Source of the DNA: Promethearchaeota archaeon | Lineage (GTDB): Archaea; Asgardarchaeota; Lokiarchaeia; Sigyniarchaeales; SOKP01 | Length of the DNA stretch: 64,000 nt | Assembly: GCA_019057865.1 (NCBI GenBank) | Contig: JAHLWP010000009.1 | Span: 1 to 64,000, forward strand | Direction: 5' to 3' | Part shown: one piece after another, positions 15,944 to 26,890 of the stretch | How positions within the stretch are numbered: position 1 is the stretch's first letter | Layout of the letters: every line of letters begins with the position of its first letter | Notes under the pieces: generated by a model | What the model was told of the DNA's origin: nothing | The model's database searches: none | Seen by the model: the letters and a program-made list of their open reading frames with translations, nothing else | Made by a program: the position numbers and the translations under genes

Positions 15944-16204
15944 TTAAATTAAAAACCATTTTTTTTTATTGAATGAACCTAGCCGCGATATTGTTATATT
16001 TGGTTTTATTTGCGAATGTTGATTTTTCATATCTTCAGGAAGATTCTTAGTTGCTTCTCCAATTATTTCAAATTTTCGAATAACTGCACTCGAAGTTTTA
16101 TCATCATTTTTAAATTCTTCAAAGGTCATTCCTTCTACAAAAATTTCTATGCTATTTATTGCTTCTCTAATATCATTTAAGTAAATTGTAAAATTTTTAG
16201 ACAT
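15944..16204 (-). pseudogene. C-terminally truncated HepT copy
   Basis: Same N-terminus as 11635..11973 up to KNQHSQI, then unrelated FKPNITISRLGSFNKKKWFLI; lacks the RX4-6H region. Confidence 0.8.
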
Positions 16205-16531
16205 ATATTACCTCTTGAAGAATTTGTTCCCTTAATTCTTTTTTCAATGTAGGTTTTGATATCACATCAACCTTTCTATTAAAATGATCTTCTAAAAAGA
16301 GGGATAACCCAATATAATGGAATAAATCAGCATCATCTTCAAATTCAATTAAAAAATCGATATCACTTGTCTCTTTTTGCTTATTATTTACATATGAGCC
16401 GAATAATCCAATACTATTTACTTTATATTTTTTCTTGATTTCAGCCTTTAGTTTTTTAAGCATTTTGAGAATTTCTTCTTTACCCTTTACCATTTTTAAG
16501 ACCTTTTTTAAACAATCCTTTTCTCAAGAAA
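16007..16531 (+). repeat. Direct repeat B of 11776..12300
   Basis: Near-identical 525 bp, same orientation. Confidence 0.9.
16197..16493 (-). CDS. mntA: MNT nucleotidyltransferase antitoxin (MntA-like), duplicate
   Basis: Almost identical to 11966..12262. Confidence 0.8.
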   Translation of the reverse strand: MVKGKEEILKMLKKLKAEIKKKYKVNSIGLFGSYVNNKQKETSDIDFLIEFEDDADLFHYIGLSLFLEDHFNRKVDVISKPTLKKELREQILQEVIYV

Positions 16532-17757: not shown

Positions 17758-18045
17758 ATGGTTTCTCAAATTGAAAAGCTTAAAGAAAAAATTTTGGAGA
17801 CATTAAGAGAGCATGAGGTTAAAAGAGCCTCCTTATTTGGATCTATAGTAAGAGAAGAAATGACTGATGAGAGCGATATAGATATATTAATAGAATTTAG
17901 AGGGACTAAAAGCTTATTAGATTTAGCAAGATTAAAAATAGAACTTGAGGAAGTATTAAAACGTAAAGTAGATGTACTGACGTATAATTCTCTCCATCCC
18001 TTATTAAAAGATCAAATTTTAGCTGAACAAGTTGAGATTTTATGA
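17758..18045 (+). CDS. MNT nucleotidyltransferase antitoxin
   Basis: EVKRASLFGSIVREEMTDESDIDILIEFRGTKSLLDLARLKIELEEVLKRKVDVLTYNSLHPLLKDQIL. Confidence 0.85.
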   Translation: MVSQIEKLKEKILETLREHEVKRASLFGSIVREEMTDESDIDILIEFRGTKSLLDLARLKIELEEVLKRKVDVLTYNSLHPLLKDQILAEQVEIL

Positions 18046-18380
18046 AAAAAAATGTAAAAATTTTTTTAGAGCACATTCTAGAAGCGATTAATTTAATTGA
18101 AGAGTATATTAAGGACAAGGAGAAATAAGATTTCCTTGAATCTAAGCAATTACAAGATTCTGTAATTAGAAGGATAGAAATTATAGGGGAAGTTATTAAA
18201 AACATCCCTAGTGATTTTAAGGACAGTCATGAAAATATCCCTTGGAAAGAAATAGCGGGAATGAGAGATATTTTAATCCATCAATACTTCGGGGTGGATT
18301 TAGAACTTACGTGGGAAGCTATTAAAGTAGATTTACCAAAATTGAAAAAATCAATTATTTCTATAATAAATGAATCGTAA
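18042..18380 (+). pseudogene. HepT-like HEPN gene interrupted by an in-frame TAA
   Basis: MKKNVKIFLEHILEAINLIEEYIKDKEK*DFLESKQLQDSVIRRIEIIGEVIKNIPSDFKDSHENIPWKEIAGMRDILIHQYFGVDLELTWEAIKVDLPKLK; ATGA overlap with the MNT gene; TAA at 18126..18128. Confidence 0.85.
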
Positions 18381-18633
18381 AAATTTAGAGGATTTCTAAT
18401 TCTGGACAATGGCAGGTTTATAATCTATAATGGGCGCTATTTTAGAGAGAATTTCTTTGCAAATTGTATAAGTATCAAAATGCAATTTATTTTTCAATTA
18501 AATTCTTGAAAGTTTTATTAATATTAAATAAACGATTTGTATTATTTATCTTAAATATAAAATTCGAAATCTTTAAAGAAAAATAAATGATCTAATTATT
18601 TTTAGTAAAAATTGAGAAAAAAGGTGGTTTAAA

Positions 18634-19479
18634 ATTCCAATATTTAGGAAAGATAATATCGAACTAAATTATATAAAAGAAGGAGAAGGCGAGCCTCTTG
18701 TATTAATTAATGGATATTGTTGTAAATTAGAGAGTTGGAATTTTCAAATATCATTTTTTAAACAAAAAATGACGGTTGTTGCATTTGATAATCGAGGAGA
18801 AGGAAAAAGTTCGAGACCAAATGATCCTTATACCATCGACACCTTCGTGGAGGATATCAAGGATTTATTGGAGTATTTAGACATACAAGAACAAATCCAT
18901 CTATGCGGTTTTAGCAATGGAAGTGCTATTGCTCAGGCATTCGTATTAAAATATCCTGCTTTAGTTAAGACCCTAATCTTATTAGGAACTGCTTCTTATT
19001 TATCTGATATAGAATTTGAACAACAACTTAAAGTTCTAGAAGGGACTTTTAAAAATGCTACTCCAGAAGATATAATCCAACTTACACTTTCTTCTATGTT
19101 CTCATTGTCTTTTAGAAAAAAATTGAAACGAGACAAGGAATTATTTGAATTATACAAAAATGATATGGGTTTAATTACTCAGTTAAAAGATCCTCCCCGA
19201 TATCAAGATTACGTCAATCAATGGAAAGCATTTAAGGGCTTTGATACTCGAGAGTTATTACATACAATTACACAGCCAACTTTGATAATGGTAGGCTCTA
19301 AAGATCAAGGTAATCTGAGAGACTCAAAAGCTATGCATGAAAAAATTCCAAACTCAATTATCGAAGTACTTGAGGATATAGGGCATGGTATCATTATTGA
19401 AGCCGCAGAAAAAACTAATAACATCATGTGGAATTTTTTAAAGGAGCGTTTAAATTTAAAAACTTCAATGCAAATTTAA
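18634..19479 (+). CDS. Alpha/beta hydrolase, probable ATT start
   Basis: IPIFRKDNIELNYIKEGEGEPLVLINGYCCKLESWNFQISFFKQKMTVVAFDNRGEGKSSRP...CGFSNGSAIAQ. The track starts at ATG 18769, after the conserved N-terminal part. Confidence 0.85.
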   Translation: MPIFRKDNIELNYIKEGEGEPLVLINGYCCKLESWNFQISFFKQKMTVVAFDNRGEGKSSRPNDPYTIDTFVEDIKDLLEYLDIQEQIHLCGFSNGSAIAQAFVLKYPALVKTLILLGTASYLSDIEFEQQLKVLEGTFKNATPEDIIQLTLSSMFSLSFRKKLKRDKELFELYKNDMGLITQLKDPPRYQDYVNQWKAFKGFDTRELLHTITQPTLIMVGSKDQGNLRDSKAMHEKIPNSIIEVLEDIGHGIIIEAAEKTNNIMWNFLKERLNLKTSMQI

Positions 19480-25154: not shown

Positions 25155-26879
25155 TTATATTTTAAAATTAACTCTTATAAATTCATCAGGATAATTAAGC
25201 GCATTGAAAAATAAGGGCGTTCCAGAAAAAAATAACGGTGAGAGTGGACCAATAGTCATAAAAGGATACTCTCGTTTTCCTAAACCACTTTGCGGATCTT
25301 TAAAGTTTTGATATAACCTTATTGCTTCTCTATTACCTCCTATAATTTCCTGGAGGGCGCGCAATTCATTACCCCAACCAAGACCAAACCCAAATGTAAA
25401 GACTCTTATTTGATTGATAATTTCATGATGGATACTTGAAAGCGTCTGACTAATAAACATCCATCCAAGGCCGTATTTTCGAGTGGTTCTAATAGCATCA
25501 ATAAAGGTTGTTCTTATTCTTTTGATATTTTCATTTTCTATTCTTCCTCTCGGTGCTAACCTATGCGCCTCGTCAACTACTACTAAAGAGTTTATGTTGC
25601 CTCCTTGTTTAAATTTATTTTCTGTCTGTATCGTAATTTTACTAAGAAATTGTTGTATTGCAATTAATTGAATATCTTCATTCCACAAGATATTCGTAGG
25701 TTTTTCTCTTGATGATAAATCTATTATAACTAAAGGATTTCCTTCTGATGCTTTTTCAAATAAAGTTGTTAATCTCACACTGTCTTTAGCTCTTTTATAG
25801 CTAAATAAATTTGTAATTCCTGCCCATAAATCATACATACTGTCTTCATTTAATGAAAGCCATACACTCTTGACTCTTTCTCTCGGCTCTTTAGTAAAAA
25901 TTACCCTCTGTAAAAACTGTTCATCAGGGATTAAACTCCATACTATTTTAAATGCATCTCTTCTGTAATATTCCCAAGGTTTAAATCCATTAAATATTTG
26001 GGTTTTAGTATTAAGAATTCTAATAATTTCATCTACAAAACGAGGCCAATGTTCTTCATAATAGATTTTTAATCTATTAAAGAATCCTGAGGCAATTAAT
26101 AGATCTTTGAATAAACTGTCGGAATAATCAAGCACTAAATTTTGTATTGTATAGATTTTAATTTTTCTACCTATTTCTTTCTCAATTATTTGTTTTAATT
26201 TTTCATTAGAAGAAAACTCAAGAGAGAATTCACCTTGAGGATCCAAAATAAAAATCGACATATTTTTATGTTTTGCATAACCACTCACCATCATTTTAGC
26301 TAGAACAGATTTACCAGAACCTGTTTTACCAAAAATACCAATGTGATAAGCTTCACCAATACCATCCTTTCCAATGTCGAAATGTTTAAACCACATTGGA
26401 AGTTTTATGTTTGAACCATAAGCTTTCCCTAAGTAAAATAACTCTTCTTGGTAATCATCTAATAAATCCTCCATTATTTCTTCATCAAATAATTTAATGG
26501 AAGTTCCTGTTGGTGGTACTGTACCTAGTATGCTAGGAACAAGATGTTGATCGTTGTTAGCAAAAACAGAACTCACCATCATTTTAGCAATATGAAGATC
26601 TTGCCTTTCTGTGATTGGGTCAACTCGGCCTTTTTGTCTAATAATACCTCTCATAGTTGGGTCTTTAGCTCAAATATTTCGCATCACGATTTCAGATATT
26701 TGTCCTAAAGCATAATGGGCCATTCCATCTTGCATAAAATTAAAAATGCTTAACTTACCTACTAATTTTTTATTAACCGCAGTTCCAATTATATCAATCG
26801 TTAATTCTCCTGTCGAAGAGGGAGAACCAATTACTCCTATTCTTTCTGCCTTGTCAATTTTCTCATTAACATTACTAAT
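25155..26879 (-). pseudogene. herA: HerA-family helicase gene with an in-frame TGA and probable ATT start
   Basis: ORF 25155..26654: GIFGKTGSGKSVLAKMMVSGYAKHKNMSIFILDPQGEFSLEF, LVVVDEAHRLAPRG. Upstream in the same frame: SNVNEKIDKAERIGVIGSPSSTGELTIDIIGTAVNKKLVGKLSIFNFMQDGMAHYALGQISEIVMRNI*AKDPTMRGIIRQKG (TGA at 26670..26672). Confidence 0.85.
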
Positions 26880-26890
26880 TTTTAATCACC

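Follow-up and report, generated by a model that had tools for sequence, protein, structure and literature searches.

A Lokiarchaeal alpha/beta hydrolase gene with a probable AUU start behind a Shine-Dalgarno sequence

The window analysed here comprises the first 64 kb of contig JAHLWP010000009.1 (C5) of a Promethearchaeota metagenome-assembled genome (MAG) of 4.26 Mb (GCA_019057865.1, hereafter G000), whose closest named relatives are MAGs of Candidatus Lokiarchaeota. At position 18634 the window carries an alpha/beta hydrolase gene whose translation almost certainly starts at ATT, an isoleucine-type codon that follows a strong ribosome-binding site. Comparison with related genomes makes it very probable that this gene is intact, that it is initiated at AUU by initiator methionyl-tRNA (Met-tRNAi) with the help of a Shine-Dalgarno (SD) sequence, and that it belongs to a class of SD-led genes starting at AUU, AUA or AUC (AUH, or ATH in DNA).

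Layout of the start region

Positions 18610-18645 of the window read AATTGAGAAAAAAGGTGGTTTAAAATTCCAATATTT. The G+C content is 29% in the sampled sequence of G000 and of a relative, G004. As an earlier note on this DNA had claimed, the hydrolase frame is closed upstream by an in-frame TGA (18613-18615, + strand) and no ATG, GTG or TTG lies ahead of the region of homology: between position 18616 and the ATG at 18769-18771 (+) there is no in-frame canonical start codon, and the conserved N-terminus thus offers no usable one. That ATG is codon 46, the point where a gene caller limited to ATG, GTG and TTG would begin the hydrolase, and it encodes an internal methionine that is conserved in the family. 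The proposed AUU start codon (18634-18636, +) stands 7 nt behind an SD core, AGGTG (18622-18626, +), which is complementary to the 3’ end of 16S rRNA (...GGATCACCTCC) and lies at a functional distance. The exact spacing given in the earlier note also holds, with GGTG at 18623-18626 followed by seven bases and then ATT. In G000 the 16S rRNA ends in GGCTGGATCACCTCC and pairs with AGGTGAT. From the ATT, a complete gene of 281 aa (18634-19479, +; Pfam Abhydrolase_1) extends to a TAA at 19477-19479.

Conservation of the start codon and of the N-terminus

An alignment of homologs, which the earlier note had proposed as a check, places ATT, ATA, ATC or ATG of the orthologs at exactly the codon of the window’s ATT. 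Two orthologs from other Lokiarchaeota MAGs have ATT (L011, 75% identity) and ATA (L012, contig CP070831.1, 68% identity) there; the start is preceded by GGTGGT and, at a distance of one and two codons, by stop codons. More distant hydrolases present ATT (L015), ATA (L016, L017, L029 and L037) or ATC (L038) at this codon, and a paralog in G000 itself, L002, has ATC. The same codon is ATG in L018, L020, L022, L026, L030, L033-L036, L040 and L041. The window’s AUU therefore occupies a codon at which relatives have AUG.

The 44 codons that follow the ATT are under purifying selection, since dN (nonsynonymous divergence) is much below dS (synonymous divergence) over codons 2-45 in comparisons of the window with L011 or L012 (dN/dS values 0.093/1.38 and 0.047/0.56). 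Moreover, the Pfam domain PF00561 (Abhydrolase_1) matches from residue 21 over profile positions 2-244 of 245 (E 8.2e-26), that is, over the full domain, while the match of a form started at Met46 begins at profile position 29 and loses the first 28 positions. The best solved relative is Est1 (6eb3, E 6e-24). With regard to catalysis, the nucleophile elbow G-x-S-x-G is present as G92-F-S94-N-G96 and is invariant in the family together with H251, and D224 is nearly invariant; the enzyme looks intact given the conservation of S94, H251 and, nearly, D224. In an AlphaFold2 model with a mean predicted local distance difference test score (pLDDT) of 90, residues 3-6, 9-16 and 21-25 form strands and residues 32-42 form helix A, in blocks with pLDDT 75-97. 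Residues 1-45 are thus a confidently modelled part of the predicted core fold, which a start at Met46 would remove. The ortholog alignment, the low dN relative to dS and the predicted fold all support the start at ATT 18634 that the earlier note had proposed.

Shine-Dalgarno spacing and start codon class

The earlier note had considered a single gene; its reading of that gene stands, and the phenomenon also involves many other genes, in many species. A scan of G000 and G004 looked for GGTG preceding any in-frame codon that comes before the first canonical start. Among long frames of G000, GGTG followed by seven bases was found in this stretch in front of 8 of 306 ATH codons and 0 of 1,960 other codons (Fisher p 1e-7). 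The same survey of G004 returned 5 of 369 ATH codons versus 5 of 3,005 others (p 0.002), and the spacing profile of both genomes shows a sharp peak at 7 nt (ATH 13/675 vs others 5/4,965). Outside the Lokiarchaeal family, this arrangement was found on 0 of 233 ATH codons and on 3 of 2,290 others in 800 kb from G066, G078, G080 and G081; none of the other Asgard families sampled shows the pattern. The search was built on a single SD core and overlooks cases whose GGTG has its GTG in frame.

All 41 ATH starts that have no nearby upstream in-frame alternative follow an SD core of 4 nt or more, mostly at one fixed spacing, versus 16 of 27 ATG starts, a difference (Fisher p 8.5e-6) that ignores kinship within five families collected by homology. 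The start codons themselves are ATT, ATA and ATC in 21, 14 and 6 cases, and internal isoleucine codons are used at 53, 34 and 13%. As these proportions match, the third base of the start codon looks unconstrained and appears to be free.

Gene families with ATH starts

At least five gene families of related species show this arrangement. The scan of G000 and G004, with Pfam assignments, pointed to a ThiF/MoeB-like protein (L097, ATT) and an aldehyde ferredoxin oxidoreductase (AOR; L091, ATA), together with further candidates, among them an XPD-like helicase (L088, ATA), a DEAD helicase (L128, ATA), another hydrolase (L100, ATT), a DsrE-like protein (L075, ATA) and a response regulator/AsnC protein (L074, ATA). 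In L074 the first canonical start is codon 88, and a protein begun there would lose its receiver domain. L085 (TFB-like), L060 and L069 were dropped as candidates, being unconvincing or having SD-like words within coding sequence.

The conservation of non-AUG starts among relatives, observed for the hydrolase in L011 and L012, is found in other families as well. Among 30 ThiF/MoeB orthologs, a single codon is ATT, ATA or ATC in 18, ATG in 9 and GTG in 1, and 17 of the 18 ATH members have no upstream in-frame alternative. The AOR subfamily AOR1 has ATA in 9 of 9 orthologs, and a second AOR subfamily has ATT in five and ATG in three. The window contains a second proposed AUU start (26877-26879, - strand), that of a HerA-like ATPase, 7 nt behind a GGTG core (26887-26890, -). 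Its start codon is ATT in G000, L285 and L286 and ATG in L287 and L288. This HerA-like gene (start ATT 26879, -) is broken at codon 70 by a TGA (26670-26672), and the frame is open in two related genomes.

Two adjoining genes for paralogous coiled-coil proteins on the minus strand of L052 (starts 3654 and 2840) both apparently begin with ATT behind GAGGTGA, with an 8-nt spacer. Upstream of the hydrolase, an in-frame TAA (18126-18128) interrupts a HepT-like gene (18042-18382, +) that directly follows the gene of a minimal nucleotidyltransferase (17758-18045), and this nucleotidyltransferase/HepT-type pair looks broken or mis-sequenced. A second such pair lies at 15944-16493 (-), where the C-terminus of the HepT-like protein looks frame-shifted.

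Alternative explanations

Translation might instead begin at Met46 (ATG 18769), with the upstream homology as a decaying remnant. This ATG is the first canonical start codon of the frame, and many relatives keep a Met at its position, but the strong purifying selection on codons 2-45, the three strands and helix A ahead of it, the missing first 28 profile positions and the upstream position at which the ATG-bearing relatives begin make such a start very improbable. Hardly more credible is a mutated or mis-sequenced ATG, with the gene silenced or the assembly wrong. The window does have other broken genes, namely the HepT-like gene with an in-frame TAA and the HerA-like gene with an in-frame TGA. 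An ATG lost in this way is nevertheless unlikely, as ATT and ATA stand at this codon in independent MAGs, and ATC is found there too in relatives’ separate assemblies. Each of these genes is otherwise intact, ATH starts with a fixed SD spacing also occur in unrelated families, and the selection on codons 2-45 speaks against a pseudogene. A canonical start could also be sought in the SD region, either at the GTG within GGTG or at an upstream start joined by frameshifting. Such a GTG is in frame three codons upstream in L023, L027, L032, L207 and L239; at the dominant 7-nt spacing, however, it is out of frame, and in-frame cases often have a stop in between (L002, L037 and L038). Nor can any fixed frameshift account for a frame distance that is 9 nt in some members and 10 nt in others. 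We give this explanation little credence. RNA editing to AUG is ruled out, as no single edit makes AUG from AUU, AUA and AUC.

The start codons are all isoleucine codons, in internal isoleucine proportions, which would suit a dedicated tRNA that initiates with isoleucine at AUH. Against this, the sole initiator-type tRNA located in G000 has the anticodon CAU. Its gene (L281, C77:728-862), which the Rfam tRNA search of the genome did not pick up, contains two introns, one behind the anticodon and the other in the region of the T-arm. Furthermore, the isoleucine tRNAs that were found, with anticodons GAT and TAT, are both devoid of the GGG:CCC anticodon stem of initiators; the TAT species is intron-containing (L193, G000 C41:172466-172621). 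AUA in archaea is usually read by a CAU tRNA carrying agmatidine. A pattern search for initiator variants with NAU anticodons returned no recognised tRNA except CAU, within the limits that introns set to such a search. An isoleucine-specific initiator is accordingly a remote prospect. Since the initiator tRNA of G000 has the anticodon CAU, Met-tRNAi acting on AUH codons and held by the SD duplex is the most economical reading.

Proposed mechanism and its limits

In the mechanism that we propose, AGGUG(A/G) would pair with the 3’ end of 16S rRNA, and the duplex, lying at the usual distance, would bring the start codon into the P site. The ordinary Met-tRNAi (CAU) would then accept AUU, AUA or AUC despite the mismatch at the third position. 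The N-terminal residue of the protein would most likely be Met, and its output may be reduced or regulated, probably throttled, by analogy with Staphylococcus aureus. The sequences themselves show where the start codon lies, which SD sequence precedes it and at what spacing, that these features are conserved across species, that ATH and ATG replace each other, and that the initiator tRNA is a normal one with CAU; from these we infer initiation by Met-tRNAi at AUH. A broader alternative, possible although rather doubtful, is that in this Lokiarchaeal family the third start position is generally uninspected behind a GGUG SD, so that AUN would be one start class of approximately 1% of genes, reflecting a lineage-specific change of the initiation machinery. 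Such a change would be expected in aIF1/aIF1A, in the 16S decoding centre or in the modification of the initiator tRNA.

Several points weigh against initiation by Met-tRNAi at an SD-led AUH class. The support consists of sequence comparison and predicted structure, and all the sequences come from MAGs. Switches of start class on the trees are few, 4 for ThiF and 6 for the hydrolase, and the 2-3 per family on well supported branches provide too few independent pairs for an SD test corrected for kinship. Among the ATH members, 6 of 47 have an in-frame ATG, GTG or TTG at most 6 codons upstream, which are possible alternative starts. In addition, no new ATH case appeared in the 381 kb of short, fragmentary flanks that were scanned. 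The share of AUH starts, approximately 1% of genes in the sampled genomes of this family, is a rough estimate, derived from G000, where some 10 of the 745 frames scored are plausible cases, and weakened as well by the flank scan; the taxonomic limits of the class are likewise an estimate from the sampled genomes.

Significance and comparison with known systems

Gene callers restricted to ATG, GTG and TTG would shorten the candidate proteins by 17 to 88 residues, catalytic and binding parts included. If confirmed, the AUH starts would mean that an Asgard lineage near the stem of the eukaryotes, in which SD sequences are otherwise rare, uses near-cognate starts as a standing class behind SD sequences. 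It would then offer a tractable system for the evolution of start-codon stringency (aIF1, aIF2 and initiator tRNA) before eukaryotic scanning.

The principle of AUH starts is known in bacteria from single genes such as infC, pcnB and S. aureus ccpN. The breadth of such starts and their presence in archaea appear unreported in the open-licence literature searched, where no Asgard or archaeal report was found. Their recurrence suggests that this Asgard lineage has a class of start codons that has been overlooked. Escherichia coli infC and pcnB share the AUU start with the hydrolase. The first is autoregulated by IF3 (PMC13009471), and the second, according to a title cited in the same work, is limited by its inefficient AUU codon. 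Both are isolated genes, infC being controlled by its own product, unlike the Lokiarchaeal AUH genes, which encode metabolic enzymes, helicases and regulators. In Borrelia burgdorferi, pncA/BBE22 is likewise an enzyme gene with an AUU start, whose mis-annotation downstream lost N-terminal residues of the catalytic site (PMC13398362), but it is a single bacterial plasmid gene.

In its anatomy the putative hydrolase start matches an ordinary archaeal mRNA with an SD leader, sharing the core of Pyrococcus abyssi aEF1A and nearly its spacing. The SD-led leader of aEF1A is GGAGGUGAUUUAAAUG (PMC6237735), and its core and spacing (GGUG-N6-start) are those of L038, GGTGATTTAAATC, although aEF1A is an elongation-factor gene with an AUG start. 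In S. aureus, an extended SD motif directs the start of infC (AUA), cvfC1 (AUU), ccpN (AUA) and citZ (AUA), and reporters with AUA or AUU starts and an extended SD give approximately 10% of the AUG output (PMC13009471). This set resembles the Lokiarchaeal one in its AUA or AUU start behind an SD sequence and in the conservation of some of its starts among relatives. It differs in being bacterial, with IF3, and confined to a handful of genes, whereas the Lokiarchaeal set has aIF1-type machinery and covers many families, in which AUU, AUA and AUC are interchangeable with one another and with AUG.
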